From a virus, in IMG/VR virus record IMGVR_UViG_3300029787_000130, positions 1 through 38,352 of that record: a DNA stretch of 38,352 bases. The stretch is one strand, 5' to 3'. A program made the position numbers and the translations under genes. Positions 3,627 through 15,808 of the stretch are shown piece after piece (position 1 is the first letter of the stretch; each line of letters begins with the position of its first letter). The notes under the pieces were generated by a model. It had not been told where the DNA came from, searched no databases, and saw only the letters and a list, made by a program, of their open reading frames with translations.

Positions 3627-4192
3627 TAGAAGTCATCGTCAACAACAACTTCCATTGAAGGAGTGACGTTAGGGTCATCAGCTTTAAATCCTGCTGTCTT
3701 ACCAAACAGTTCAGCTACACCACCTTCGTCCAAATCTCCTGTATCCACACCAGCACCGGCTTGAATGCTGACGAGTTGTACACCTGATAACTTAAGGCTA
3801 GTACCATAGGTAACGCCATCACGCAGTATGTAAGGTTTTTGATGAAAGCCAAGCTTAACTTTGGACCCTTCATACACAGGTGTATCTATATTTGTTATTG
3901 GTGTTCCTTCTGTATCAACTACAGGAGGTCTTTTATCTTCAGCCCATGAAAACTTAATTATAAATTTACCATCAGCTACTTCTTCCCAAGGCTCAGGTCG
4001 TAGAGTAGAACGCTTAGGATTCTTTAATTTTGATTCTGCCCATTTAAGACAGTCAGTTCTTTCAGTCTCAAGTGCTTCAACTACTTCACTTCCAACTACT
4101 GCCTTTAGTGAGTAACCAAACTTACTTGGTTTTAATATCGCCTGATAACCTTCAAGGGTTACAGGATCTTTTGTTACGTGTATGTTCTTCAT
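3626..4192 (-). CDS. Single-stranded DNA-binding protein (T7 gp2.5-like)
   Basis: 188-aa protein in the gp2.5 position between RNA polymerase and endonuclease I. The body is basic to neutral, with a region 'WAEDKRPPVVDTEGTPI' and 'GTSLKLSGVQLVSI' typical of cyanophage gp2.5 proteins. The C-terminus is acidic and ends in an aromatic residue (VVVDDDF), the hallmark tail through which T7 gp2.5 contacts the polymerase and helicase. The start overlaps the RNA polymerase stop by one base. The family call rests mainly on the tail, the size and the gene order. Confidence 0.88.
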   Translation of the reverse strand: MKNIHVTKDPVTLEGYQAILKPSKFGYSLKAVVGSEVVEALETERTDCLKWAESKLKNPKRSTLRPEPWEEVADGKFIIKFSWAEDKRPPVVDTEGTPITNIDTPVYEGSKVKLGFHQKPYILRDGVTYGTSLKLSGVQLVSIQAGAGVDTGDLDEGGVAELFGKTAGFKADDPNVTPSMEVVVDDDF

Positions 4193-6531
4193 TAACAGAA
4201 AAAATATGGTGAATCAATTACTTGGGATATAAAATCCATATCTCCAATAATCGGCGGTTCAGATTCTGCTCCAATTGCTTGGGCAAATTCTTTTAGGAAG
4301 TCACGCCCTGCGAACAGGTGCATGTATGTATCTCTCACTAGGTGGGATAAATGTGTCATATCTGTTGCTCTACATAAAACGGAATCATGTATCAAACTAA
4401 TTGGTGCATGAAACTGTGTTGCAGATAGATGTAGCAAGCTTGCATCTAATGAATGGATAAGATTAGGTGCAGTAGCATTTCGGTGATGTCTTATATCAAC
4501 TCCTAACTCGCCATCAGCTATCTTGATTTGAGTACGACCAAGCAGTTGTAGTTCGATTACCTTGGTGTTCATCTTCATTAATCGCTGAGTGACTCGAAAG
4601 CCTGATGGTGTTACCCATACGAATTGTTCGGCACCGTTTCTAATTGCATTTGCAACTTCTTTTTCTATCCATCTCATTACTTTCATCGGTCCCGGGACGA
4701 CCTCTTCCATGGCATCCCTTACCGCTTTAACGATTTGAGTTAGCTCTTCGTTTTCAATCTCGATATCTATATCATCAAAAGCATCGCGTATATATTGCCT
4801 GTTACTAAAAGGTTTAGAGTTATAAGGTATTGTCATAACTGTCTTCTTGGTTTTTTTCCTATCCCAGTAGGGACGTAACCTGTCAGGTATTTGATCTATA
4901 CATTGGTCAGCAATTAATTTATAAGCATCTTGAGGTTTCTTACTTGGTATAACGTTTACCATCTGAGCTGTTGACTTGTCTCGAGCCAAAGCAGCGAGCA
5001 CCTGTAATCCTGAGCAGGTTGCGTCAGTGGCTACAGGTAATCGTGTGATAGTACGAGATCCTTGAATAACTACTGCGTAGTATTCCTCGCAAGCTGCAAG
5101 AAATTGCCAAGGTTCGTCAACTGTTTCCCAATCTCCAATGTTATTTATTGGATCTGTGGCTACACGCTTGATGAGTTGTGTGTTATCAAGCGGCCACGCT
5201 AGTCTCTCGTCTAACGTTGCTTTATCAAGACCAAACGTTGTAGCTACTTGAAAAGCTAACCACTTCTTACCATCCTCAGTAATCTTATCTCCTTCAGCGA
5301 AGGTTAAGAGACTCTTACCAAAGTCAGTATCTTGAGGTGTAAGGAAGCTAGGTATAGGATATGCTCTACCCCTGTAATCAAAAGACCAAGGGATATAGTA
5401 GTCCTTACCTTTAAACTCTCGTACACAATTCATTGTCATACGAGTCCGACAGCTAGTCCGCCATTCATTAGCGTTTTTATTCTTAGCAATCGCAGCTCTC
5501 TTCTTCCACTCTTTACGAGCTAACTCGTTTGTATCAATATCAAAAGGTTTAGGGGGTTCGGCGTGATGTAGTACTGGTCTAAATTTTCCTACTGTTATCT
5601 CCCTCTCCTCCAACTCCTCAGCTACTTCTACTATGAAATCATTTAAATGATATTTAACCTTTTGTATAAGGTTCAGGAACTCATAAGTTTTTTCTCCCTG
5701 TATAGATAAGGGTACCCCCCTTCGCACCATTTCATGGCACTTGGCGACATCATTTAAGTAGTAACCACCATCATGTAATTGACTCCAATCTCTTGGTTCA
5801 ATTAACATCGGCCAGCTAATAGGAGAGAATAATTCTGTAAGACGTATAATCTCTTTTTTATGTATTTCAAATGCAGGAGTTGTTTTTAAATATGATTCTT
5901 TTCGGTTACCTCTTTGAATTATATTTTTAGCAAACCAACCCGATGATTCACAAAAGCAATCAAGGAACCATGTCCCTGTTTTAATACGTAACTGTAAATT
6001 CCAAGGTATCCATGTTTCTACATCAGCTTTACCAAACAGTACTTGCATAGACTTACGTTTATATTCAGTACCTTTGGCTTGATGCCAATAGTTTTCTTTT
6101 AATACTTTAAATAATCCCGGGGCTGTTGTTTCGTAAAATCTCATCTGGGCTTCAGCTTCTAACGCTTGACCTACAGCTTGAGCAATCTTAACTAATTTTC
6201 CATTTTCTTTTCTAAAGGAAAACACTTTATCAAATGTTACCTTTGCGGTGATAGCTGCTTGGGCTTCAGTATCTAAAGCACCAAGGTAAGGGAGCAATTC
6301 CATTAAATGACCAGCTCCTCCTACTGCTACCTTTCTTCTTTTCTTTTTCTTTTCATTTATTTGTTCAACTATTAATGGTAGGAGAGTATCTATTGAAGCT
6401 GAACCGAAAACTGTAGCCGAAGCGTAATCCTGTTCAAGTAATTTCTTGGTATTGGATCTGATCTTTTCTAAGCCACCACTTATTTGTTTTCGTTCAAATC
6501 TCTCCTGTCTTTCTAGATCGGCAGGAAGCAT
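4192..6531 (-). CDS. Phage DNA-directed RNA polymerase (T7 gp1-like)
   Basis: Single-subunit RNA polymerase that transcribes the middle and late phage genes from phage promoters. Visible catalytic motifs are DATCSGLQVLAAL (motif A Asp), KKTVMTIPYNSK (motif B, Lys and Tyr of the O/Y-helix), and LIHDSVLC (motif C HDS). The 779-aa length is shorter than T7 (883 aa) and fits cyanopodovirus polymerases. The C-terminus is SPYFFC, where T7 has an aromatic FAFA end. The ATG at 6531 has no clear Shine-Dalgarno. A terminator, an attP and a dyad site lie just upstream, so it probably has its own promoter or is reached by readthrough from the early region. Confidence 0.96.
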   Translation of the reverse strand: MLPADLERQERFERKQISGGLEKIRSNTKKLLEQDYASATVFGSASIDTLLPLIVEQINEKKKKRRKVAVGGAGHLMELLPYLGALDTEAQAAITAKVTFDKVFSFRKENGKLVKIAQAVGQALEAEAQMRFYETTAPGLFKVLKENYWHQAKGTEYKRKSMQVLFGKADVETWIPWNLQLRIKTGTWFLDCFCESSGWFAKNIIQRGNRKESYLKTTPAFEIHKKEIIRLTELFSPISWPMLIEPRDWSQLHDGGYYLNDVAKCHEMVRRGVPLSIQGEKTYEFLNLIQKVKYHLNDFIVEVAEELEEREITVGKFRPVLHHAEPPKPFDIDTNELARKEWKKRAAIAKNKNANEWRTSCRTRMTMNCVREFKGKDYYIPWSFDYRGRAYPIPSFLTPQDTDFGKSLLTFAEGDKITEDGKKWLAFQVATTFGLDKATLDERLAWPLDNTQLIKRVATDPINNIGDWETVDEPWQFLAACEEYYAVVIQGSRTITRLPVATDATCSGLQVLAALARDKSTAQMVNVIPSKKPQDAYKLIADQCIDQIPDRLRPYWDRKKTKKTVMTIPYNSKPFSNRQYIRDAFDDIDIEIENEELTQIVKAVRDAMEEVVPGPMKVMRWIEKEVANAIRNGAEQFVWVTPSGFRVTQRLMKMNTKVIELQLLGRTQIKIADGELGVDIRHHRNATAPNLIHSLDASLLHLSATQFHAPISLIHDSVLCRATDMTHLSHLVRDTYMHLFAGRDFLKEFAQAIGAESEPPIIGDMDFISQVIDSPYFFC
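5696..5721 (-). promoter_or_regulatory. 26-bp repeat copy 1, candidate phage RNA polymerase promoter inside gene 1
   Basis: On the minus strand the core reads CCCTTATCTATACAGGGAGA, preceded by AGGGGGGTA. It matches a second copy at 12473-12498 at 25 of 26 positions. The end resembles the T7 class promoter end CTATAGGGAGA. It lies within the RNA polymerase coding frame (residues VPLSIQGE), so coding constraint alone cannot explain its match to a non-coding site. The promoter role is inferred. Confidence 0.6.
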
Positions 6532-6583: not shown

Positions 6584-6599
6584 TATACTAAGGTGTATA
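6584..6599. promoter_or_regulatory. 16-bp dyad site, copy a
   Basis: Minus-strand sequence TATACACCTTAGTATA: 5-bp inverted arms around a 6-bp spacer. It sits between the terminator at 6620-6650 and the RNA polymerase start and is identical to the copy at 9952-9967. It could be an operator for a dimeric regulator or a small RNA hairpin in the polymerase leader. Confidence 0.6.
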
Positions 6600-6619
6600 G
6601 GTTTATAAACGACTGCAAT

Positions 6620-6650
6620 AAAAAAGATCTCAGCTATATTAGCCGAGATC
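6620..6650 (-). terminator. Rho-independent terminator after attP, before the RNA polymerase gene
   Basis: Minus-strand hairpin GATCTCGGCT-AATAT-AGCTGAGATC, ten pairs with one G-U, followed by TTTTTATT. It would stop host transcription that comes through the integrase and attP before it reaches the phage RNA polymerase gene. Confidence 0.8.
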
Positions 6651-6680
6651 GTATACAGGTATGTATTTTACTTAACGCTT

Positions 6681-6721
6681 GATTTTAAGTCCGGCGCGTC
6701 TACCAATTCCGCCACACTCCC
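6681..6721 (-). other. attP core: 5' half of a tRNA-Leu(UAA) gene
   Basis: The minus strand reads as a bacterial tRNA-Leu from the 5' end (GGGAGTGTGGCGGAATTGG…) through the D-arm (TAGACGC) and the anticodon loop CTTAAAA, anticodon UAA. Similarity ends two bases into the 3' side of the anticodon stem, and no T-arm follows. About 41 bp therefore match a tRNA gene, with the crossover region near the anticodon loop, as usual for tyrosine recombinases. It lies just downstream of the integrase. P-SSP7 is known to carry a similar tRNA-Leu match of about 42 bp. A functional tRNA is not encoded. Confidence 0.88.
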
Positions 6722-6793
6722 AGTGGATCTCGGCGAAATTATTGTAACAGACACGCTTAACATATATCAAAAACGTTAATAAAAATACTGTTA

Positions 6794-7777
6794 TCAAGAC
6801 CTTGCGGACGCGGCGGATAACGCCACATTTGGATTTGCAAAGTCAATTGAGTTGGCGCGGGCTACTGCCTGATCATCACGAGTATGTAGGTATCTCTCAC
6901 AACTACGAGTTGAAGATGAACCTAAATGCTGCTTGATCTCGATCACATGTTTACCACTTTCTGCTAACAAAGTTCCACATGTATGTCTAAGTCCATGGAA
7001 TTTCCAAGGGCTATCTTCTCCTGTTGGTTTACCAATATAAGTTAGACACTTATGCCATTGACGTGAAAGAGTTTTTTGTCTAGCTTTCATGTTGTTACCA
7101 GACCAATCTTCACGGAATGTATAACCCCATGGTTCTTGACGACTCATACGTTCCGTTAACATTGGAACTAATGCATCGTGAATACCAAGAGATCGTATTG
7201 GTGTCCTTTTATTTTTAGGTTTGTAAATGATCATAGATTGGTGTTGAAGATTAATGCGATCATTAGTTAATTGCAAAATCTTTCCCAATCTAATACCAGT
7301 TAAAGCAGCGAAGAATATGACATCTGCAAGACCATCATTACATAAACGATTTCTTGCAAAATCAATCATGGCATGCACTTCTTCAGTTTTGTAAGCATAG
7401 CGTTCTTGGGCATCTTCATTCTCATCGAACGTCATAAATGTGGGAACTTTCCAGTTCTTATCTAAGAGATCCATGAACATGCAGTACCTAAGAACACCTG
7501 AGATAGCTGACTTGTATCTGTTGAGTGTGCCATTTTTTTTGCCATAAGTGTTTTTCATTTCCAATTGATCTTCAAGTATCATCCTTGCGGTGATCTTATG
7601 TGGATCAAATTTTGGAGAATGACCAAACAATTCGCAAAACTTGTTAGAGTTTCTTATTGCATTTTCTCTACCACCTCGTCCTTCTGCCCATTTAGGGTTA
7701 GTACGGATGGCAAAGTCCCTGCATTCTTTCCATGTGATTTTAGGTTTAGTCATAAAGGGTTTCTTTAAGGTCATCAA
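6794..7777 (-). CDS. int: Tyrosine-family site-specific integrase
   Basis: Phage integrase, 327 aa, expected to recombine the adjacent attP with a host tRNA-Leu gene. An N-terminal SAM-like core-binding domain (about 1-130) is followed by the catalytic domain with Arg in ALTGIRLGKILQL, Lys in IYKPKNKRTP, the H-x-x-R box HGLRHTCGTLLAESG, the later His in KQHLGSSST, and the nucleophile Tyr in CERYLH. All catalytic positions are filled. The ATG at 7777 overlaps the upstream regulator and has AAGG about 9 nt before it; an ATG at 7753 overlapping the regulator stop is an alternative. Its position between a winged-helix regulator and attP makes a compact integration module. Confidence 0.95.
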   Translation of the reverse strand: MMTLKKPFMTKPKITWKECRDFAIRTNPKWAEGRGGRENAIRNSNKFCELFGHSPKFDPHKITARMILEDQLEMKNTYGKKNGTLNRYKSAISGVLRYCMFMDLLDKNWKVPTFMTFDENEDAQERYAYKTEEVHAMIDFARNRLCNDGLADVIFFAALTGIRLGKILQLTNDRINLQHQSMIIYKPKNKRTPIRSLGIHDALVPMLTERMSRQEPWGYTFREDWSGNNMKARQKTLSRQWHKCLTYIGKPTGEDSPWKFHGLRHTCGTLLAESGKHVIEIKQHLGSSSTRSCERYLHTRDDQAVARANSIDFANPNVALSAASARS

Positions 7778-8114
7778 TCAGTGCCTTGCCTTGTTTAGTA
7801 AGGACGAGTTGATACCTTCTCAGATTAGAAGGATCTCTCTCCTTGCTAATCAGGTTAAGCCCCGCTTTTTCTTTGTAACGATGAATCTCTGCTAGGTAAT
7901 CAGTATTCCTGCTACCAGCAGCATTCGAGTAACCCAATGCAGCTTCCATCGCTTGCTTATGACATCCATCATGAGATGCGATGTATAAGAAAGTTAGTTG
8001 TAACTGCAATGGCATTTCAGGATCAAATATCATAAACTTCTTCATACATTTGAAGAGTTTATGCATCTGAGTGTCAGTCAGTTGATCCTTCCATGGGTCT
8101 GTCCCTCTCTCCAT
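7746..8114 (-). CDS. Winged-helix (MarR-like) transcription regulator
   Basis: 122-aa protein. Residues about 20-122 look like a MarR-type winged helix: LQLTFLYIASHDGCHKQAMEAALG as helices up to the recognition helix, then AGLNLISKERDPSNLRRYQLVLTKQGKALIDDL, with the β-wing and the typical 'LT.QG..L' ending. MarR proteins bind short pseudo-palindromes as dimers. It overlaps the integrase start by 32 bases and is itself overlapped by the 58-aa ORF, so all three are probably one transcript. A role in the choice between lysis and integration, or in early gene control, is inferred from position only. The nearby 16-bp dyads are plausible targets. Confidence 0.65.
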   Translation of the reverse strand: MERGTDPWKDQLTDTQMHKLFKCMKKFMIFDPEMPLQLQLTFLYIASHDGCHKQAMEAALGYSNAAGSRNTDYLAEIHRYKEKAGLNLISKERDPSNLRRYQLVLTKQGKALIDDLKETLYD

Positions 8115-8250
8115 CGTTCAAAGGTGGTTGTTGGATTTGTCCTGCCGGACACGTATACTGTAACACGAATCTACCGACATGTATATCAAAGTCGCAAAAC
8201 TTTTCTTTATCCATGCCTAAATAGAAGTCGCCTTTGGAGAAAAGTTTCAT
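8074..8250 (-). CDS. 58-aa hypothetical protein heading the integration module
   Basis: Small ORF starting MKLFSKGDFYLGMDKEKFCDF and ending RPMEGSTD. It overlaps the start of the winged-helix gene by 41 bases in another frame. The N-terminal 37 residues have ordinary protein composition; the C-terminal 20 lie in the overlap and look less constrained. No family recognised. It is the first ORF after a candidate sigma-70 promoter at 8280-8307. Without it, about 210 bases would be empty in an otherwise packed genome. Confidence 0.5.
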   Translation of the reverse strand: MKLFSKGDFYLGMDKEKFCDFDIHVGRFVLQYTCPAGQIQQPPLNDGERDRPMEGSTD

Positions 8251-8279
8251 CTAAAAGTAATTTAAATAAGAAGTAGTAA

Positions 8280-8307
8280 ATAATACTTAGTCAGTAGTAT
8301 ATAACAA
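8280..8307 (-). promoter_or_regulatory. Candidate host sigma-70 promoter for the regulator-integrase module
   Basis: Minus strand: TTGTTA (8307-8302), 16-bp spacer, TATTAT (8285-8280), followed by an AT-rich stretch and the 58-aa ORF at 8250. It would allow transcription of the regulator and integrase separately from the early operon. Confidence 0.4.
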
Positions 8308-8327
8308 GTAAATGTTTCGGTCTGTGT

Positions 8328-8480
8328 CTACTTTATACGTTTTATAATTTGCTTGTCTATGACTGGCGTGTCATCGTTTAATTGTTGTTGCATTATGTTA
8401 AGCAACTCTGACATATGAGGGCTTTGGTATACTTCGCTACTTAATTGTTCGTAACGCTTGTTAAATGTTCTACTGTTCAT
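8328..8480 (-). CDS. 50-aa hypothetical protein
   Basis: ORF with ATG at 8480, overlapping the previous gene's stop by 11 bases. The protein begins MNSRTFNKRYEQLSSEVY and ends VIDKQIIKRIK; it is polar, probably helical and Gln/Asn-rich in the middle (NIMQQQLNDD). No family recognised. It is the last ORF of the chain of small overlapping early genes that starts at 9705. Confidence 0.5.
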   Translation of the reverse strand: MNSRTFNKRYEQLSSEVYQSPHMSELLNIMQQQLNDDTPVIDKQIIKRIK

Positions 8481-8790
8481 TGTTGTTAAAATCGATAGGT
8501 AAATCTTCAGGTTTAAGGTGATACATTCCTTCCATGGTGCATAGGTAGATTTCTTTGTTTTCTTTAATTGATCTACTTATACGTTTCTTTGTGTGATAAG
8601 GCGTGTTATAGAAGTACTCTTCTACTTTTCCTTTCTCGTCCGTGGTTCTGATTATTGAAAATACAGAATCAGGTAGTTCATAACCATAAATTTTCCAGTC
8701 TTCAAACAGGTCATATGGCATGGACATAAAGTTTTTGGATGGGGTGTCCTTGATGGCTCGCCAGTTATTGGGAAAGTATTTTCTTTTCAT
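8470..8790 (-). CDS. Hypothetical early protein, 106 aa
   Basis: Soluble-looking protein beginning MKRKYFPNNWRAIKDTPSK, with a central SVFSIIRTTDEKGKVEEYFY and ending EDLPIDFNNNEQ. No catalytic motif, membrane segment or family recognised. It starts inside the stop of the 54-aa ORF (ATGA overlap) and overlaps the 50-aa ORF downstream. The tight coupling and balanced composition support it as real. By analogy with T7 it sits in the early region, where host take-over proteins are found, but nothing in the sequence shows its role. Confidence 0.75.
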   Translation of the reverse strand: MKRKYFPNNWRAIKDTPSKNFMSMPYDLFEDWKIYGYELPDSVFSIIRTTDEKGKVEEYFYNTPYHTKKRISRSIKENKEIYLCTMEGMYHLKPEDLPIDFNNNEQ

Positions 8791-8951
8791 ATGAATTCAA
8801 TCCTTTTTACGTCTAAGAGGTTGTACTTGTGTGATTTGACAAAATCCAATGCGTCATACGCAGCGTCTTCATCGCAGTCAGCCTTAATAAAGTGATGACT
8901 TCTATATAGGTCGCCATCTTTTAGACGATAAATAACTTGATAAGTGTTCAT
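8787..8951 (-). CDS. 54-aa hypothetical protein
   Basis: ORF from ATG 8951 to TGA 8787, encoding MNTYQVIYRLKDGDLYRSHH… ending DVKRIEFI. The stop overlaps the next ATG (ATGA), which supports translation. The pattern suggests a small β-α protein: YQVIYRLKDGDLYRSHHFIKA, then an acidic helix DEDAAYDALDFVKSH. No family recognised. A CACACTCAT motif lies 13 bases upstream of the start. Confidence 0.6.
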   Translation of the reverse strand: MNTYQVIYRLKDGDLYRSHHFIKADCDEDAAYDALDFVKSHKYNLLDVKRIEFI

Positions 8952-9027
8952 GGCAAGCCCGATGAGTGTGTTGAATTACCTGTCCATTTCTGGGGGTTTA
9001 CTGACTGTCAGGCGGTAGTCTGGGTGC

Positions 9028-9234
9028 TTATAGTTGTCCTTGTCTCCTATCTTTAAGTGGAAATAGCTCTGGCTCAGGTCTAAATGAGCTAACTATTATG
9101 TCCATGCGTAGGGCTTTGTCCTTGATACTCTGCAATTCCTTGAGAATATCTTCAAAAGATGAGGAGTCATCGAGGTTAGGATTAGATGCCCATGCAACTG
9201 AGTAGCATTCAGCTACAAATTCAACTTGGGTCAT
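9028..9234 (-). CDS. Hypothetical early protein, 68 aa
   Basis: Acidic, mostly helical protein (MTQVEFVAECYSVAWASN…, SSSFEDILKELQSIKDKALRMD). It starts within the end of the preceding CxxC ORF (14-base overlap). No family recognised. It is followed by about 75 non-coding bases that hold a CACACTCAT motif. Confidence 0.65.
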   Translation of the reverse strand: MTQVEFVAECYSVAWASNPNLDDSSSFEDILKELQSIKDKALRMDIIVSSFRPEPELFPLKDRRQGQL

Positions 9235-9427
9235 TGTTAACTACTCCTACAACTGGGTTATCAAAGTCCTTAAGTCTTGCTTGAACCAGGTCAGGTCTAC
9301 CGCACCAACTACAGTTATGTGGGTTGATACGTCCTTCACTTGATACAACATGCGTGTAATCCCTTGCGGTTCTACGCTTAAGGATGGTGCCATCTGGGAA
9401 GGTGGCTGTTAGTGTTCTTGGTTTCAT
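9221..9427 (-). CDS. Hypothetical early protein with CxxC pair, 68 aa
   Basis: Begins MKPRTLTATFPDGTILKRRTA, a β-rich, basic N-terminus, followed by HNCSWCGRPD. A single CxxC with nearby His could bind metal, but two more ligands are not evident. Start and stop overlap both neighbours (ATGA at 9427; 14 bases at 9221), so it is part of the coupled early operon. Confidence 0.7.
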   Translation of the reverse strand: MKPRTLTATFPDGTILKRRTARDYTHVVSSEGRINPHNCSWCGRPDLVQARLKDFDNPVVGVVNNDPS

Positions 9428-9705
9428 GCTTCCTCCTTAAGCTTTTCTAATGTTTCTCTCTCTTTTTTATAATTAGCTCTGCTTTTTTCAGTAGATTTAA
9501 GTCTATCTACTGCATCTTTAGTAGATGTAATGTGTCTTGCTTCAATCCTGTATTCCTCTCCACAATCTGGAGTAGCAATCATAGTTACGTGAGCGCAAGC
9601 CCCCTTAATATCGTGGTAGACACCACCAATATTCCATTCGCAATCGTATCCGCTATTCCATAGAACAACCCATACAATTACTTCGCCTTTGTGATCTTTA
9701 GCCAT
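9424..9705 (-). CDS. Hypothetical early protein, 93 aa
   Basis: First gene of the overlapping early block 9705-8328. The N-terminal half (MAKDHKGEVIVWVVLWNSG…) looks like a small β-sheet domain; the C-terminal 35 residues (DRLKSTEKSRANYKKERE…) are highly charged and probably coiled coil. No family recognised. Upstream lie a tRNA-like element and a dyad site, a possible leader for the block. Confidence 0.7.
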   Translation of the reverse strand: MAKDHKGEVIVWVVLWNSGYDCEWNIGGVYHDIKGACAHVTMIATPDCGEEYRIEARHITSTKDAVDRLKSTEKSRANYKKERETLEKLKEEA

Positions 9706-9739
9706 TTGTCAGTAAAGCCCCGCTCTTTGCGTGGGCAAG

Positions 9740-9824
9740 TGGACGTAGACGGAATCGAACCGTCCTTGCTGTTCGGAGTCAGCATTAACCATGCGTCCAT
9801 GAGTTTGTTAGTCCTTGCACGTCC
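9740..9824 (-). other. Degenerate tRNA-like element 1
   Basis: Minus strand contains a perfect T-arm GACGG-TTCGATT-CCGTC (9764-9748) followed by TACGTCC-A, like a tRNA acceptor end. It can pair with GGACGTG at 9824-9818 (7 of 7 with one G-U) or GGACGCA at 9798-9792 (6 of 7). Between them TGCTG…CAGCA could be an anticodon stem, but the loop has eight bases, and no proper D-arm is visible. The 85-nt or 59-nt span is not a normal tRNA. An 8-base word and a 12-base word are each repeated inside it, suggesting a partial duplication. Confidence 0.4.
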
Positions 9825-9851
9825 ATGCGTCCATGCTCAAATACATACATA

Positions 9852-9867
9852 CATACCACTGCGTATA
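9852..9867. promoter_or_regulatory. 16-bp dyad site, copy b (divergent)
   Basis: Minus strand TATACGCAGTGGTATG: ATAC and GTAT half-sites around six bases; the outer pair does not match. It lies just upstream of tRNA-like element 1 and downstream of the CACACTCAT cluster. Confidence 0.4.
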
Positions 9868-9912
9868 GGCACAACATGAGTGTGCGACCATGTGAGTGTG
9901 TAATGAGTGTGG

Positions 9913-9950
9913 AAAAATATAAAATAGTGGCATGATATATACCACTATTT
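9913..9950 (-). terminator. Candidate terminator after the cysteine-rich gene
   Basis: Minus strand AAATAGTGG-11 nt-CCACTATTT, a perfect 9-bp stem, followed by TATATTTTTCC. The stem is AT-rich, so termination may be partial. It lies just past the stop of the 246-aa gene and a dyad site. The inverted repeat could instead be an operator. Confidence 0.45.
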
Positions 9951-9951
9951 A

Positions 9952-9967
9952 TATACTAAGGTGTATA
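9952..9967. promoter_or_regulatory. 16-bp dyad site, copy c
   Basis: TATACACCTTAGTATA on the minus strand, identical to copy a. It begins two bases after the stop codon of the gene at 9970-10710. Confidence 0.6.
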
Positions 9968-9969
9968 GA

Positions 9970-10710
9970 TTACTTATTTAAAATATCATTTACTGTCTTA
10001 ACTTTGTTACCATGAGCAATGAAACCTACAGGGAAGTCGCGCTCTTGCCATGCACAAATACCACAGTTCTCACACTTAGTGGGGACACATGTTTGAGCCG
10101 GACATATCTTGATACGTCTACCCTCTGGCGTCTTTAATTGTTTAACTTGACGGTAATATACTTTGTGATCTTCTAATGAACAATAAGGAATAATTGAATC
10201 ATCAGTAGATGGGATAATAGTTACCGCATTAAGTCCTTGATTAATAACATCATCAGCTTGACTATATGTTTCAGTGCTTGAGTTAATAGTAAACCCATTC
10301 TTAGTTGCATACTTTAAAGCTTCCTTGTTATGTGTGTTTAACTTATGATGTGAGTAAGTATAACCCTTGGCATTACTCGCTTTGTTGGCGTCTACCAATT
10401 GCTTAAGCAATGCAAGGTTAATAAGTTCTTGACCATCTGGCGCAGTGTCATAAAATAAATCCCCTGATACGTTATGACGCCAGAGTTGGCCGGCATTTAA
10501 TTGAGATACAAAGGACGCTAAATCATCCCATGTGCCGCCGCGCTTACCTTCGGTGACTTTGCGCCAGTGCCAGCTTTGCGGGCCGGTCTTAGCGTAACAG
10601 CCGTCCCACATTGGGCATGTGGTAGGGCATGAGCCCGCAGCACTGGTTGTGACTGGGATCTTGCCTACCTTGCCATTACCTGACTTGGCAGTGATATGCA
10701 CTCTGGTCAT
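9970..10710 (-). CDS. Cysteine-rich phage protein of unknown function (DUF7227-like)
   Basis: 246-aa protein. The N-terminal part has GKIPVTTSAAGSCPTTCPM followed by WDGCYAKTGP, then RGGTWDDL and LWRHNVSGDLFYD; the C-terminus has CPAQTCVPTKCENCGICAW. The clustered cysteines at both ends look like metal or Fe-S ligands. The layout recalls phage proteins with CPxxCP…GCYA and LWRHN.xGD motifs (I believe DUF7227), whose function is unknown to me; some resemble radical-SAM-like folds, but I see no CxxxCxxC at the usual place. Its start overlaps the stop of the 55-aa ORF (ATGA). It is followed by a dyad site and a hairpin. Confidence 0.75.
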   Translation of the reverse strand: MTRVHITAKSGNGKVGKIPVTTSAAGSCPTTCPMWDGCYAKTGPQSWHWRKVTEGKRGGTWDDLASFVSQLNAGQLWRHNVSGDLFYDTAPDGQELINLALLKQLVDANKASNAKGYTYSHHKLNTHNKEALKYATKNGFTINSSTETYSQADDVINQGLNAVTIIPSTDDSIIPYCSLEDHKVYYRQVKQLKTPEGRRIKICPAQTCVPTKCENCGICAWQERDFPVGFIAHGNKVKTVNDILNK

Positions 10711-10874
10711 GATGCACCCCGAATCATTTCATGCTTTGCTCTGCAAAGGGACTCAAACATATCCCAACAGTTGTGATCGAACAAAGTTAAGTCTCTTAAC
10801 TCAAGACCAAGATCCTTGAGAACGTGGTCTATAACTGCATCTTTGATGAAGTTGGTTGATGTTGTTATCTCCAT
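10707..10874 (-). CDS. 55-aa hypothetical protein
   Basis: ORF from ATG 10874, four bases after the stop of the KTSC-like gene, to a TGA that overlaps the next start. The protein begins MEITTSTNFIKDAVIDHVLK and continues through LGLELRDLTLFDHNCWDMF. Mostly helical, acidic, no membrane segment, no family recognised. The tight spacing on both sides supports it. Confidence 0.6.
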   Translation of the reverse strand: MEITTSTNFIKDAVIDHVLKDLGLELRDLTLFDHNCWDMFESLCRAKHEMIRGAS

Positions 10875-10878
10875 CAGC

Positions 10879-11202
10879 TCAAGCTACACTCTGTGTAGCA
10901 AGTAGGGCTGGTAACTCATTAGCGTGGTAGCTGTTACCAATTCTTTGGTAAGTCATAGCACCAGTCTGTGGTCTAAATCTATTCTCAGGAATAGCTTTTT
11001 TACTAAGGAACTGAATCCAAAAGCCTAAGCTTTTGTTGTTATCAGATAACAGACTTAACAGTCTGCGTCTTGATACGTTCTTGTAAAGGTACTCTTCACC
11101 AGATTTTTTAAATCTGATAATACAAGTAGCGTTAACTACGTTAACGGCAGCAAACTCAACGGCGTCACTAAACCTACGGTTGACAATGGTGTAACCAAAC
11201 AT
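10879..11202 (-). CDS. KTSC-like small protein
   Basis: 107 aa from an ATG at 11202 that has GGAG 8 nt upstream; the frame is open further upstream but without such a site. The segment IRFKKSGEEYLYKNVSRRRL followed by SLGFWIQFLSKKA resembles the KTSC domain pattern (a strand with Gly-Tyr-Tyr, 'V…L…', then 'S.G.F…K'). The KTSC domain occurs beside lysyl-tRNA synthetases and in phage proteins; its function here is unknown. It is the first clear early gene after the presumed genome terminus. A palindrome and a tRNA-like element form its leader. Confidence 0.65.
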   Translation of the reverse strand: MFGYTIVNRRFSDAVEFAAVNVVNATCIIRFKKSGEEYLYKNVSRRRLLSLLSDNNKSLGFWIQFLSKKAIPENRFRPQTGAMTYQRIGNSYHANELPALLATQSVA

Positions 11203-11229
11203 AATAATTCTCCGAATTAAATTAAAGAT

Positions 11230-11247
11230 TTGGATATAAATATCCAA
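11230..11247. repeat. 18-bp inverted repeat in the leader of the KTSC-like gene
   Basis: TTGGATAT-AA-ATATCCAA, perfect 8-bp arms, 28 bases before the start codon and directly after tRNA-like element 2. It may be an operator; as RNA it has too short a loop unless the inner pairs open. Confidence 0.5.
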
Positions 11248-11248
11248 G

Positions 11249-11320
11249 TGACTGCAACGGATTTGCACCGTTCATGATGTGTTGTTGGTATACACCACAC
11301 ACCATGCACTAGAGACAGTC
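11249..11320 (-). other. Degenerate tRNA-like element 2 (anticodon position CCA)
   Basis: 72-nt minus-strand span with the right spacing for a tRNA. Acceptor GACTGT (11320-11315) pairs with GCAGTC (11255-11250), six pairs with one G-U. The T-arm AACGG-TGCAAAT-CCGTT (11272-11256) has a perfect stem, but G replaces the invariant T55. The anticodon arm GTGTA-TACCAAC-AACAC (11295-11279) has four of five pairs and CCA (Trp) at 34-36, but A instead of U33. No D-stem is visible. It looks like a decayed or repurposed tRNA. Confidence 0.4.
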
Positions 11321-11331
11321 TAGTATCTTAT

Positions 11332-11347
11332 GATACTAAGGTGTATC
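11332..11347. promoter_or_regulatory. 16-bp dyad site, copy d
   Basis: Minus strand GATACACCTTAGTATC. The outer base pair is G-C instead of T-A in copies a and c, so both arms changed together. It lies 11 bases upstream of tRNA-like element 2. Confidence 0.6.
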
Positions 11348-11411
11348 GATTAGCACTTGTATGAACGGCGGTGAGCTATGCTCTGCTCTGTGCCTTTACC
11401 CAAATCCCTTG

Positions 11412-11621
11412 TTACAGGTCGCCGTCACCGCTTTCTCTGCGGACTTGGAACTCTACGTTCCACTTATTAAGGTCGGTCAACTTCTTGTCCTGCTGGTATT
11501 CACTGGACTCAAGAGACTTTACGTCTCTGTGGCTGCTCTGGTTTGTTTTAGTCGAAAATTCTGTTGAGAGTAGTTTGTCGTTTAGTTTATTTATCTCTCT
11601 CACCCTAAAGGGAGAGATCAA
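11412..11621 (-). CDS. Possible early ORF, up to 69 aa
   Basis: Open frame from TTG 11621 (or GTG 11603) to 11412, encoding a polar, charged protein (…INKLNDKLLSTEFSTKTN… ending FQVRRESGDGDL). It follows the best host promoter candidate by about 35 bases, where T7 has its first early genes. No ATG, no convincing ribosome-binding site and no family. Open frames also exist on the plus strand here. Weakly supported. Confidence 0.35.
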   Translation of the reverse strand: MISPFRVREINKLNDKLLSTEFSTKTNQSSHRDVKSLESSEYQQDKKLTDLNKWNVEFQVRRESGDGDL

Positions 11622-11654
11622 TAAAGTAAACGTAAAACAAACTATCTCTATCTC

Positions 11655-11678
11655 ATTATACCACAGTGTATCGGTTAT
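11655..11678 (-). promoter_or_regulatory. Early host promoter with extended -10, overlapping dyad copy e
   Basis: Minus strand TGGTATAATGAG: a consensus TATAAT (11660-11655) directly preceded by TGG, the extended -10 form. No good -35 at 17 bp. The dyad GATACACTGTGGTATA (11672-11657) overlaps the -10, so a protein bound to the dyad would block it. Position fits the T7 arrangement, with host promoters just inside the genome left end ahead of the early genes. Confidence 0.55.
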
Positions 11679-11990
11679 TCATCCCAACCAGTTCAATTAG
11701 TGGCACAGTTCGTACCAAACAGTAGTCATGCCAATCAGTCTCAGTTTGAGTCTAACGATACAGCAACAGATCGCGAGAGAGAGAGAGCCAGATAAACCGC
11801 GCCCGCGTGCGGCTGCGTGCGTTAATTGATCGCCCGCGCCCCCGTTTGAAGGGCTCAACACGTGTTATCTCTGCAAATCCGCTGCTATGACAGGGCTGAC
11901 GAGGGATTATATATCCTGCGACAGTACTTGCACCCCCCTAGGGGGTATTTCCCGCGCACGCTCTTAGCGAATAGACCTGAGAAATTTATG
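11679..11990. other. Gene-free region, presumed virion genome terminus (direct terminal repeat)
   Basis: About 310 bases without a credible gene, between the last late ORF and the early promoter. It contains an AG-rich run (11775-11788), a GC-rich block rich in CGC words (11799-11846), an ACCCCC-CTA-GGGGGT inverted repeat (11932-11946), and a TATAAT at 11911-11906 on the minus strand. In T7-like phages the linear genome starts and ends between terminase and the early genes with a direct repeat of roughly 150-250 bp. In a circularised assembly that repeat would collapse here. The exact ends cannot be read from one copy. Confidence 0.5.
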
Positions 11991-12074
11991 TCATTTTTTA
12001 AAGAGACCCAATCTCCTTAATACATAAATACTCAGTATTGTCCAAAATGCAATCTCTAAGCCAACATTATTCAT
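11991..12074 (-). CDS. 27-aa single-span membrane microprotein
   Basis: ORF with ATG at 12074, overlapping the end of the 87-aa gene by 8 bases, with the purine-rich stretch GGAGAAAGAGG before it. The peptide has a short polar start (MNNVGLE), a hydrophobic stretch of about 13 residues (IAFWTILSIYVL) and a basic end (RRLGLFKK), a typical N-out or N-in single helix. T7 also has a small gene, 19.5, just after terminase; homology is not shown. A role in lysis or host membrane interaction is only a guess. Confidence 0.4.
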   Translation of the reverse strand: MNNVGLEIAFWTILSIYVLRRLGLFKK

Positions 12075-12330
12075 CCTCTTTCTCCGGGAAGTAGCCAATG
12101 GTATATCCATTACCGTCTTCACACTCTTCTACCACAGCTTCATAGACAGTATCAGGATGTTCTACCATGTACTTCTCTATAGCTGTATCTACAGTCTGTT
12201 TAGCTTTTAATTCAATATATCTATTCTCTAAACCAATCAACACACCAAGTATTAAGAAGTTGAGAGGTGGGAAAGGAGTCTTCAGACTCTTATATAACTC
12301 TTGAAAGGTTATTATCTTTAGTTTAGGCAT
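12067..12330 (-). CDS. Hypothetical protein with one membrane segment, 87 aa
   Basis: Begins MPKLKIITFQELYKSLKTP, then a hydrophobic segment FPPLNFLILGVLIGL (about residues 20-34), then a helix (ENRYIELKAKQTVDTAIEKYM) and an acidic C-terminus ending EKEDE. Probably a small membrane-anchored protein. No family recognised. It follows the large terminase after a terminator and the 26-bp repeat, the place where P-SSP7-type phages carry talC. It may be transcribed from the promoter-like repeat at 12473-12498. Confidence 0.65.
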   Translation of the reverse strand: MPKLKIITFQELYKSLKTPFPPLNFLILGVLIGLENRYIELKAKQTVDTAIEKYMVEHPDTVYEAVVEECEDGNGYTIGYFPEKEDE

Positions 12331-12421
12331 ATATAGTGTTATTAATAGAACTCTCTAATCCGAACCCTTTTGGGAAGTGGAGAGTAGTGTTTTAAAGGAA
12401 TATCATTAACGGATATTTATT

Positions 12422-12455
12422 AAAAGGGGACGGTAGTTTTAGTACCTGTCCCCTT
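12422..12455 (-). terminator. Hairpin terminator after the large terminase
   Basis: Minus strand AAGGGGACAGG-11 nt-CCGTCCCCTT with one A mismatch in the stem, followed by TTAATAAAT. Strong GC-rich stem with a modest U tract. Only about 20 bases separate it from the 26-bp promoter-like repeat, so transcripts from that repeat may be attenuated. Confidence 0.6.
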
Positions 12456-12472
12456 ACAAGGGTCCACCCTTC

Positions 12473-12498
12473 CCCTGTATAGATAAGGGGACCCCCCT
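12473..12498 (-). promoter_or_regulatory. 26-bp repeat copy 2, candidate phage promoter at the right genome end
   Basis: Minus strand core CCCCTTATCTATACAGGGGA preceded by AGGGGGGT, overlapping the terminase stop codon; one mismatch to the copy at 5696-5721. T7 has promoter phi-OR near its right end, used in replication, and this site has the same place and direction. CCCCT and AGGGG can also pair as a short hairpin. The promoter function is inferred. Confidence 0.6.
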
Positions 12499-14230
12499 AA
12501 ACCCAGTTAGGGGCTTCTTTATTTGTTGTCTTAGTTCTAGCTTGTTGTCTTTGGTTAACGTCCAGTCCGAGTACTAAATGATTAGCACTACCTTGTGGAT
12601 CATCTAAGAATTGTTCTAGTATGTCGTCCCACTCTTCACGTTTACGTAGGTTGATCTGTTCCTGTGCAGAGATAGACAGTGAATCGGTAAAGTATTTAAC
12701 GCCTTGAGCTAGACAATCTAATCTGTCATCATGCTTAACGGCATACTTCATTCGACACATCCTACTCATTTGGTAGAAGAGCATGTAGAGAAGTCTTTGT
12801 TCTGGAGGATGTTCTTTGTTTGAGTTATAGTCCCAATCAATAACACCCCTATTAACAACAAGGCGGTGTTGGTTAAGAACAGGCTCAAGGCTATCAATGA
12901 TTCTGTCTTCTTTCCTAACATTCGCTCTAACCTCATCAACAAAAATGTTCTGCTTTGTTTGTTGAAGGTGTTTTTTAAAAAGTTCACTTACTATTCCGTC
13001 TCCAAAGTTTGTCTCTACGACTAAGGTAGAAACGTTGTATTTCTTGCAACCTTTTAGTATGTCAAGCAAGGTATTGTCTGAGTACCCATCTCGATAGGCT
13101 CGCACTTCATGAAGATAGAGAAAGCCGTTCTTCTGGGAGATATAACAGGCTGCTGTCTCATCAGATCCTCTTCCAGAGGGGTCAACTGAGCAGATTGTTT
13201 CTTGATACGGGGTCCATTCACCTTGTAGTTGCATAGGTGAGTAGAAATAATCCCCGGGAAGTCCCACTGTTGGCAGATCTTTGATGACATTTCTTGGATC
13301 GGAGCACCATATGACATTATCGGGTGCTTCAGTAGGATTAATACTGGTAACAACCAAGTCAGCCATTTTAAGAGGAAACTTCTCAGCGTCAGACAAGCTT
13401 GTGTCAAGCATGAACTGAAGCATAAAGTTGCTTCGTCCCATAGATGATTCTCTTTGTTGTAGGTCTTCATCATCGAAGCGGTCAGGGTCTGTAGATTCCC
13501 CCGGTTCTGCGCCATGGTCTATGTCTTCTTGTAATTGTGGAGCTATTAGCCCTTCATATGGAGTGATGTTTTTTGGAAATCTTGCCGGCCAAACAAATGG
13601 TCGATAATTCCGCTCTGCCAACTTACGATAAACAGTAAAAGTAGTCTGAGGAGTCCCGAGATACATAATACGGCTATCGTCTTTCGGCGTAAGGATTGAT
13701 TCGGCTTCGGTACAAAGTTGAAGAAGTTTTTCACGCATTAACTCCGTCATACTGTTCCCGGGAACCTCTATATCGTCTAGGATCATTAAATCTGCACGAC
13801 TTCCAGTCATTTGACCAGTTATACCAACTGATTTGACTGAAGGTGCTTGGTGAGGTGAACATAAAACATCAAATGATATACGTGACCATCTAGCATCATC
13901 AGACTTAGGTCTTAAATGCTTTAGCCAAGGTGTTTCGATAATTAGCTTCTGTAAAAAGATGCTCATGTTGTCTGCTCTCTCTTTAGAGGCAGAAATTATC
14001 ATTATTTTCTTTTCGGCGTTATTAAATAGAGTCCATAAAACAAAAGCACCAGTAATCCAGCTCTTGCCAACTCCCCTAAACGCCTGTATTTGTAGTCGCT
14101 TGGGACCACTCTGCAAGTAATCTGCAATTGCATATTGTGCCCTCGTTGGTTGAGGTAGGTCAAGCTGGTCCCACAAAGCTTGCAGAAACAGCTTGAAATC
14201 GCCCTGTAAGGCGGTTAAAGTATCATTCAT
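12497..14230 (-). CDS. terL: Terminase large subunit (T7 gp19-like)
   Basis: DNA-packaging motor with ATPase and nuclease, 577 aa (T7 gp19 is 586). The Walker A region is AFRGVGKSWITGAF, and Walker B is DLMILDDIEVPGN. The RNase H-like nuclease residues appear in CSVDPSGRGSDETAACYIS (Asp), LVVETNFGDGIV (Glu) and HDDRLDCLAQGV (Asp). All key residues are present. The ATG at 14230 follows the 505-aa gene by 17 bases that hold a dyad site. With the small terminase at 16357 it cuts concatemers and fills the prohead. Confidence 0.97.
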   Translation of the reverse strand: MNDTLTALQGDFKLFLQALWDQLDLPQPTRAQYAIADYLQSGPKRLQIQAFRGVGKSWITGAFVLWTLFNNAEKKIMIISASKERADNMSIFLQKLIIETPWLKHLRPKSDDARWSRISFDVLCSPHQAPSVKSVGITGQMTGSRADLMILDDIEVPGNSMTELMREKLLQLCTEAESILTPKDDSRIMYLGTPQTTFTVYRKLAERNYRPFVWPARFPKNITPYEGLIAPQLQEDIDHGAEPGESTDPDRFDDEDLQQRESSMGRSNFMLQFMLDTSLSDAEKFPLKMADLVVTSINPTEAPDNVIWCSDPRNVIKDLPTVGLPGDYFYSPMQLQGEWTPYQETICSVDPSGRGSDETAACYISQKNGFLYLHEVRAYRDGYSDNTLLDILKGCKKYNVSTLVVETNFGDGIVSELFKKHLQQTKQNIFVDEVRANVRKEDRIIDSLEPVLNQHRLVVNRGVIDWDYNSNKEHPPEQRLLYMLFYQMSRMCRMKYAVKHDDRLDCLAQGVKYFTDSLSISAQEQINLRKREEWDDILEQFLDDPQGSANHLVLGLDVNQRQQARTKTTNKEAPNWV

Positions 14231-14245
14231 ATACGAATGTGTATA
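14230..14245. promoter_or_regulatory. 16-bp dyad site, copy f
   Basis: Minus strand TATACACATTCGTATA, perfect 5-bp arms with a changed spacer. It fills the gap between the 505-aa gene stop and the terminase ATG, whose first base overlaps it. Confidence 0.55.
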
Positions 14246-14247
14246 AG

Positions 14248-15765
14248 TTAGCGTTTACCATGTCTGTAGCGTTGTCTAGAGTCCGTATCGATAGGAGATC
14301 TAGGAAATCTGCCAAGGTCTAATCCAAGGTTCATCAAATCAGCTGGAGTGGCAATCATTTCTCCAACACCAGACCAACCAGTGAACAGTGAAGCGTTTGC
14401 TAGACCAAGTTGGATACCGTCTAGCCAATTTTTACTTTCTTCATATTTCTTACCTCGTTCAACAACGTCAGCAGCACTAGCGGCTGTACCTAATACTCCG
14501 GGAGCTAATGCAGCAGCTGTAAATACTGTACGTCTAACAGGTGTAGGAATTAGATTACTTGTACGATTAACGTTCTTTAAAACTTTTAGAATTTGTTGTT
14601 TACCGTTTTTGTATCCGTTCTTTATTCCATTAGAGCCATTAGCAATATTTTTACCAGCTTTAACTACTTTATTGTTAACTATTTCAAAGTCTGACTGTAT
14701 TTTTCCGTATGGAGCTAAATCGTCAATACTTTGAATTTTTGGATTCTTACTACCATCCCCAACAACTGTAGTTTTAGGCGGTATTAATCCTTGTTGTTTA
14801 TAACTTTCTACAACATCTAGTAATTCTTGATCAGCTTTATACTTAGCTTGGTTCTTAGCTATTTCAGCATTAGGATCACTATATCCTGAAGCAGCATCAA
14901 CTACTTGATATCCTTTTAATTGATAATTTCTAGGTAATTGATTAGGATCTAAACCTTGGTTTCTTAAATGCCAATCTGTAAATGATTGCATCCAATTTTC
15001 TGGTATAGCTAATTCTCTGGCTAAACCTTTAGTATCAGTAAAAGGTGTTCCTCCTTTTGATCTATTTGGTGAACTAAGTTCGGAAGCTGCATTAAGACCA
15101 ACATTGGGTCCATCTAATATAGATGGTATAAAATGACCTATATCAAAACTTAAACCAGAATTAGCTTTTATAGCTTTATTTGTATCGCCAATTTCATCCC
15201 AACTGGCTCTCATTTCTTTAGCCCATTTTTTACCTAAACCGGGTTCAATCTTTTCTGCAAAATCAATAACTCTCTGAGATACTTTGTCTTGAAAATATCT
15301 ACGGTGATAAGACAGTTCTCCGTCACCACTAACCTTAATTGGTAGACCTGTCCATCTCATTTTGGAGATCTGTTTAAGCCGTTGAGGCGTTTTTTGTGCA
15401 GGGGTTAGCTTTGAAATAGCTTCATCCTGAACAAGTTTTTCTAATATCTCTTTTTTTCTTTTTTTGAAATAGGCTTTTTTAAATCCTTTATCACCTTTTA
15501 TACTTGGATCACTCTTAATGATTCCATCCATTTCTGCATATAATCTTCTTTGTAAATAACCTCTTAATTCTTCAGCAGTTTTAAACTTTTTAGGTATTAA
15601 ACCTTCTTTCTTATATTCGTCAAATATAAAATCTAAGTGTTTTGGGTTATTTAGGTTTGTAGCTAATAATGGATTATCTTTTTTTAATTTATAACCAGCA
15701 ATAGTATCTTGTTGAAAATCTTCTTGGATTTTCTCATATACCTTTTTCTTTTCTTTACTTGCCAT
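14248..15765 (-). CDS. 505-aa phage protein with possible His-Me finger nuclease motif
   Basis: Unrecognised as a whole. The N-terminal 130 residues are Lys-rich and helical. Around residues 205-240 the segment FDIGHFIPSILDGPNVGLN continues into ELSSPNRSKGG. This has the spacing of HNH/His-Me finger nucleases (G-H-x-x-P…G…N…N-R-x-K), but the middle Asn and metal ligands are not certain. The C-terminal part has two hydrophobic stretches (TVFTAAALAPGVLGTAASA and LANASLFTGWSGVGEMIA). It lies between the HNH gene and the large terminase. A terminator hairpin lies directly before its start, so the AAGGGG of the hairpin may double as the ribosome-binding site. It could be a packaging nuclease or a virion protein. 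Confidence 0.7.
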   Translation of the reverse strand: MASKEKKKVYEKIQEDFQQDTIAGYKLKKDNPLLATNLNNPKHLDFIFDEYKKEGLIPKKFKTAEELRGYLQRRLYAEMDGIIKSDPSIKGDKGFKKAYFKKRKKEILEKLVQDEAISKLTPAQKTPQRLKQISKMRWTGLPIKVSGDGELSYHRRYFQDKVSQRVIDFAEKIEPGLGKKWAKEMRASWDEIGDTNKAIKANSGLSFDIGHFIPSILDGPNVGLNAASELSSPNRSKGGTPFTDTKGLARELAIPENWMQSFTDWHLRNQGLDPNQLPRNYQLKGYQVVDAASGYSDPNAEIAKNQAKYKADQELLDVVESYKQQGLIPPKTTVVGDGSKNPKIQSIDDLAPYGKIQSDFEIVNNKVVKAGKNIANGSNGIKNGYKNGKQQILKVLKNVNRTSNLIPTPVRRTVFTAAALAPGVLGTAASAADVVERGKKYEESKNWLDGIQLGLANASLFTGWSGVGEMIATPADLMNLGLDLGRFPRSPIDTDSRQRYRHGKR

Positions 15766-15766
15766 T

Positions 15767-15786
15767 AAAAAAGCCCCTTACGGGGC
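15767..15786 (-). terminator. Short terminator overlapping the leader of the 505-aa gene
   Basis: Minus strand GCCCC-GTAA-GGGGC followed by TTTTTTA, then ATG two bases later. Compact stem and good U tract. Its downstream arm holds the only Shine-Dalgarno-like stretch for the 505-aa gene, so folding would also hide the ribosome site. Confidence 0.65.
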
Positions 15787-15792
15787 GGTATA

Positions 15793-15808
15793 TGTACATA
15801 GGTGTATA
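15793..15808. promoter_or_regulatory. 16-bp dyad site, copy g (divergent)
   Basis: Minus strand TATACACCTATGTACA. The left half is identical to copies a and c; the right half is GTACA instead of GTATA. It begins two bases after the HNH gene stop and lies before the terminator. Confidence 0.45.

Follow-up and report, generated by a model that had tools for sequence, protein, structure and literature searches.

The window analysed here is the whole 38,352-bp record of a marine virus (IMG/VR record IMGVR_UViG_3300029787_000130), a P-SSP7/P-SSP2-like, T7-like cyanopodovirus whose main genes are carried by the minus strand. Short dyads of the form TATAC-N6-GTATA recur between its genes, and comparison with related sequences suggests that they are probably operators of the phage's own 122-aa MarR-type regulator. 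A first-pass annotation had offered three functions for them, namely operators of this protein, RNA processing hairpins and a second promoter class. The first is best supported, by the distribution of the sites, by their covariation with the MarR recognition helix and by a fixed spacing at the MarR promoter. The sites are listed below; scores are those of the held-out matrix described in the next paragraph.

6584..6599, minus strand: site TATACACCTTAGTATA, upstream of the RNA polymerase (RNAP) gene; score 22.1; kept before RNAP in relatives
8170..8185, minus strand: site TATACATGTCGGTAGA, in the promoter region of the MarR gene
8157..8162, minus strand: -10-like hexamer TACAGT, 7 nt below the site at 8170-8185
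9952..9967, minus strand: site TATACACCTTAGTATA, 2 nt past the stop codon of a 246-aa gene and directly before a terminator
11332..11347, minus strand: site GATACACCTTAGTATC, left-end early region; score 12.9; at the same place in P-SSP2, L095, L044 and L018
11657..11672, minus strand: site GATACACTGTGGTATA, left-end region; score 12.6; conserved in P-SSP2, L044, L095 and L018
14230..14245, minus strand: site TATACACATTCGTATA, in the gap after the stop codon of a 505-aa gene, overlapping the terminase start codon
15793..15808, minus strand: site TATACACCTATGTACA, 2 nt past the stop codon of the HNH gene, before a terminator and the 505-aa gene

When up to one mismatch was allowed, the 16-bp pattern had 11 occurrences in the window, where 2.0 would be expected; 0 of 100 shuffles reached 11. 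A matrix trained on 64 sites of other phage groups, from which the window and its near kin were excluded, returned as its top six hits on both strands the sites at 6584, 14230, 9952, 15793, 11332 and 11657, all of them on the minus strand. The first four outscore the best of 40 random windows; the last two are, taken alone, not beyond random windows, and the same places are occupied in relatives. Unsupervised motif discovery gave the same six sites as the top intergenic repeat of the window (log-likelihood excess 87 vs 43-49 in three shuffled controls) and an equivalent motif as the top intergenic repeat of P-SSP7 and P-SSP2 too, while a de novo search in genomes devoid of MarR, judged against a null of three shuffles only, yielded no equivalent motif. 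Of the seven members originally proposed for this family, six represent one real motif; the remaining one, at 9852 (TATACGCAGTGGTATG, minus strand), fits poorly, lies outside the top 16 hits of the held-out matrix and was excluded, and the site at 8170-8185 had been overlooked. Placement of the sites between genes or touching start and stop codons was described correctly. A scan of the genome and its relatives, proposed in the same annotation, recovered an oriented, intergenic motif whose positions recur in relatives. Across 139 related contigs its consensus is TAAYY-T[AG]T[AC]C-AC-N-T-W-N-G-N-A-Y-A, found 202 times in sense and 3 times in antisense orientation, with near-invariant positions T3, C5, A6, C7, G12 and A14 (G12 in 97% of sites, G12/A14 at 97-98%).

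We compared the occurrence of the dyads with that of the regulator. Five MarR-bearing genomes (the window, P-SSP7, P-SSP2, S-CBP1 and S-TIP37) contain 3-6 intergenic T.T.C-N6-G.A.A dyads each, counting those in which at least one variable pair is complementary, and ten genomes devoid of MarR contain 0-1 each. The motif is in effect restricted to phages with the MarR/integrase module. A strong dyad is located at most 130 bp before RNAP in 27 of 42 non-redundant contigs carrying MarR, integrase and RNAP, compared with 6.3% of shuffles. Moreover, specificity of the RNAP-upstream site tracks the recognition helix, the terminase site being an exception: A occupies position 4 in 19/19 genomes with the MarR helix SNAAGSR, and C does so in 15/15 genomes with the helix S[ST]ASGSR. 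The MarR tree and the RNAP tree disagree, and on the latter three switches of MarR type can be placed (one clade rejected, p-AU 4.6e-34), the motif base switching alongside in 3/3 cases. The contigs L063 and L067 possess nearly the same RNAP specificity segment and yet different MarR helices and motif bases. If the sites are operators, MarR proteins of the SNAAGSR type should prefer A at position 4 (TATACACCTTAGTATA vs TATCCACTAAAGGACA sites) and those of the S[ST]ASGSR type C. A motif-like stretch, AACCTGTCCACATTGGTACG, is also present inside the RNAP coding sequence of C-type phages (L001 8221 and orthologues); it has C in all 14 and is probably a matter of codon conservation.

The AlphaFold model of the 122-aa protein is a winged helix (pLDDT 89.6) with the order H-H-H-H-E-E-H, and its best PDB matches, among those listed with a named family, are MarR proteins, so that the modelled fold is that of a MarR winged helix. 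On sequence alone the relationship is weak, as the window protein has no Pfam match and MarR_2 is matched at E <= 1 in 10 of 26 relatives. Identity amounts to 90% with the P-SSP2 counterpart and to 48-50% with P-SSP7 pMarR (PSSP7_011), a dimer which binds DNA, for which it needs R67, and which also binds host RNAP alpha (PMC9692554). In the model, residues 64-74 form the recognition helix and hold the type-defining residues; R69, aligned by eye through its SRN context, corresponds to R67 of pMarR. By analogy, the window protein is presumed to bind DNA as a dimer.

The sites might alternatively bind some other factor, such as the phage integrase (as arm-type sites), host DnaA or another host regulator. 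In nearly all the contigs examined, integrase and MarR are indeed inherited together, and TTATACACA at 14230 fits a DnaA box. Most sites are, however, distant from the integrase and the attachment region, and the arms vary among phage groups in step with the MarR helix type. As for DnaA, the first and last positions of its box (motif positions 0 and 8) are unconserved, whereas G12 and A14, which DnaA would not need, are kept nearly everywhere. We regard the box as a resemblance and any such factor as very unlikely.

An alternative that initially appeared attractive is that the sites are promoters, perhaps of a second class, of the phage's own T7-like polymerase. The segment CAC-NTWN-G, which always lies on the transcribed strand, is similar to the T7/T3 core (CACTATAG/CACTAAAG); strict sense orientation, intergenic position and the near-invariant G12 would fit a promoter, and the KP34 polymerase is reported to recognise two unrelated promoter sequences (PMC6834552). 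Against this, several sites run straight into a terminator, and the motif tracks the MarR helix, while neither the RNAP tree nor the specificity segment predicts it (L063/L067). In addition, a direct-repeat search revealed a different element, present in two copies, one lying some 800 nt into the RNAP gene and the other near the right end. In the window it takes the following form.

5696-5721, minus strand: AGGGGGGT(A/C)CCCTTATCTATACAGGG, some 810 nt into the RNAP gene
12473-12498, minus strand: second copy of the same element, right after the terminase stop codon

The promoter of Syn5 RNAP is ATTGGGCACCCGTAA (PMC3950665). The two-copy element of Syn5 is exactly this sequence, and the window copies occupy positions matching two Syn5 promoters. 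Counterparts, many of which end in TATACAGGG, were found in P-SSP7, the window, S-TIP37, S-RIP2, S-SBP1, S-CBP4, 9515-10a, P-SSP10 and P60. Unlike the dyads, the Syn5-type element is present in ten tested cyanopodoviruses, with and without MarR. Judged by sequence, the copies at 5696-5721 and 12473-12498 are probably the true phage-polymerase promoters. The T7/T3-like promoter, favoured at first for its sense-only orientation and CAC-N4-G core, was dropped because the Syn5-type element is present in the same genomes and because the motif follows MarR rather than RNAP. For the same reasons the second promoter class put forward in the first-pass annotation is unlikely.

Support for DNA as the target comes from the promoter of the regulator's own gene, which the site overlaps. 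Of 16 non-redundant phages, 14 have a TAnnnT hexamer exactly 7 nt past the dyad upstream of MarR, a number reached in 0/300 shuffles; in the window this promoter reads TATACATGTCGGTAGA-N7-TACAGT (8185-8157, minus strand). RNAP-upstream sites, unlike the MarR sites, display no fixed -10 spacing (P 0.61), and the order before RNAP in the window is terminator (6650-6626), dyad (6599-6584) and RNAP start (6531). Several neighbouring elements were observed as well. Just below the MarR -10 lies a perfect inverted repeat, TGTCC-GGCA-GGACA (8138-8151, minus strand), versions of which with 4- or 6-base spacers are present in L006, L008 and L015; this repeat may serve as an additional operator or form a hairpin in the RNA. 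A further conserved block (ATCTAGCGAGG or ATCTACCGA) is located 14 nt downstream of the RNAP-upstream dyad in L081, L287, L295 and others, falling between dyad and RNAP start in several phage groups. The site at 11657 overlaps TGGTATAAT, an extended -10-like sequence (11652-11672, minus strand) kept in P-SSP2 and L044, and from its sequence this may be an early host promoter at the left end. A transcript beginning at the site 14230-14245 would be nearly leaderless.

Could the sites act as RNA, through a small hairpin that serves in processing, in the control of termination or in antitermination? Their sense-only orientation would agree with it, as would their frequent position 2 nt past a stop codon and next to terminator hairpins, and weak folds are predicted at 6584 (-2.2 kcal/mol, z -2.9) and 14230 (-2.3 kcal/mol, z -3.8). 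The stem is nevertheless missing elsewhere (0 kcal/mol at the P-SSP2 RNAP site, -0.2 at 15793), pairing at 2:15 and 4:13 fails in about 40-64% of sites, and the fixed 7-nt spacing to the -10 before MarR points to DNA. As the stem is weak, often broken and devoid of compensatory maintenance, we find the hairpin suggested earlier improbable.

The dyad symmetry itself deserves closer inspection. Conservation is mirrored, with positions 1, 3 and 5 strong and likewise 16, 14 and 12; in RNAP-upstream sites T at 19 mirrors A at -2 (19/19). Other phages contain perfect palindromes (TGTCC-N6-GGACA, TATCC-N6-GGATA, TATTC-N6-GAATA), and both halves of the site TTTACACCAGTGTATA of pelagiphage HTVC119P read T(T/A)TACAC. 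Despite the mirrored profile, the halves are unequal, the downstream half being weaker, and compensation is not robust. Complementarity at pairs 2:15 and 4:13 was seen in just 36-59% of 64-75 non-redundant sites, and its excess over shuffles is no larger than that of non-cognate pairs; no robust signal of compensatory arm changes beyond clade structure was found. The joint change of both arms noticed at 11332 (GATAC..GTATC) is present in the window, but orthologues carry uncompensated forms, TATAC..GTATC in L095 and L044 and TATAC..GTACT in L018. The idea that symmetry itself is selected thus holds as far as the dyad is real, its conservation being mirrored; the dyad is asymmetric and strictly oriented, and compensation is not statistically robust. 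The 3' arm of the same site is also part of a local inverted repeat, TAGTATC-N4-GATACTA (11325-11345; in P-SSP2 and L095 too), which may explain the GATAC..GTATC variant. We infer that the best description is a two-fold site whose halves differ in strength, one being strong and the other weak.

The genes concerned are arranged in the window as follows.

4192..6531, minus strand: T7-like single-subunit RNAP gene, the presumed controlled gene (72% identity to P-SSP7 RNAP)
6794..7777, minus strand: tyrosine integrase, part of the MarR/integrase module
7746..8114, minus strand: MarR-type regulator, 122 aa, the presumed binder (PHROG 9665 transcriptional regulator; winged-helix model)
12497-14230, minus strand: terminase gene
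6626..6650, minus strand: terminator-like hairpin between the integrase and the RNAP-upstream site
9922..9950, minus strand: terminator-like hairpin directly after the site 9952-9967
15773..15786, minus strand: terminator-like hairpin directly after the site 15793-15808

Between integrase and RNAP (about 6690-6725) there is also a tRNA-like segment, presumably resembling the tRNA-Leu attachment site of P-SSP7; ARAGORN detected no complete tRNA there.

Under the operator reading, these sites would belong to a MarR-integrase-RNAP module of integrase-carrying T7-like cyanophages. A MarR dimer would recognise a pair of half-sites of the form T(A/G)T(A/C)C, of which the upstream one is extended (TATACAC, preceded by AAYY) and the downstream one weaker (GTATA, often degenerate). 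At the MarR-integrase promoter, the site would cover the -35 and spacer region, 7 nt before the -10, so that MarR binding there would act on the host-RNAP promoter of its own gene. Ahead of the RNAP gene, MarR bound between terminator and start codon would control expression of the phage polymerase and, via this polymerase, of middle and late genes. Further operators would lie in the early region at the left end, ahead of the 505-aa gene and ahead of the terminase gene. Binding, the dimer model and the sign of regulation are all deduced in this scheme. We lean towards repression; activation through host RNAP alpha is possible by analogy, since P-SSP7 pMarR binds alpha (PMC9692554).

Several observations weigh against the sites being operators of MarR. 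Only three independent switches of MarR type are available, so a sign test alone cannot reach significance. Because of the physical linkage between the MarR gene and most sites, recombination could transfer both together and thereby give the appearance of co-evolution. At the terminase site, A is retained at position 4 in 3/4 phages of the other MarR type; as this base is kept with either type, the site at 14230-14245 may be under extra constraint. Binding of pMarR is of low specificity as published (PMC9692554). The dyads are strictly oriented, though a dimer operator need not be, and some are flanked by a stop codon on one side and a terminator on the other, a position in which control of a promoter would be of little use. 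A terminator-like hairpin follows within 75 nt downstream in 31% of 64 non-redundant sites, compared with 10% of controls. A simple dimer operator accounts for neither the strict orientation nor this adjacency. One might suppose that the oriented sites at stop codons and terminators, instead of being plain repressor operators, are loading sites from which MarR bound to host RNAP alpha controls read-through or restart at the borders of gene blocks. We consider this extension unlikely; if true, it would turn a MarR-family protein into a phage-wide transcription switch.

Many T7-like cyanophages carry an integrase together with MarR and may thus be able to decide between integration and lysis. 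A defined candidate operator consensus at the MarR promoter and before the polymerase makes such a decision directly testable by binding and transcription, and sets these sites apart from the promoters of the phage polymerase itself.

Operators of bacterial MarR-family proteins (OhrR, MepR, SlyA, MarR) are short inverted repeats of about 16 bp placed over promoter elements. The window dyads differ from them in that they are strictly oriented, have unequal half-sites and lie next to stop codons and terminators. The Syn5 promoter (PMC3950665) is, like the dyads, a directional regulatory element of the same virus group, but it occurs in two copies, in the RNAP gene and near the right end, and its window counterpart is a separate element. 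P-SSP7 pMarR, homologous to the window protein and itself a dimeric DNA binder with an essential recognition-helix arginine, was studied on the host rne region, and the text of that study contains no phage operator consensus (PMC9692554). According to PMC10134795, Boeckman et al. 2022 proposed a MarR-based control module for temperate T7-like phages; the MarR and integrase genes of LUZ100 are transcribed together, and MarR is proposed to act on the promoter before RNAP (PMC10134795). In LUZ100 we found two TATCCAC copies between int and RNAP, distinct from the mapped phage promoters (ATTACCACACAGG...). As in the window, MarR of this module adjoins the integrase upstream of RNAP, with sites proposed near the pre-RNAP promoter. 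Beyond the module, as the citing paper describes it, the window displays a defined, oriented consensus that recurs at six to seven positions, among them the MarR promoter, the left end and the region before terminase.

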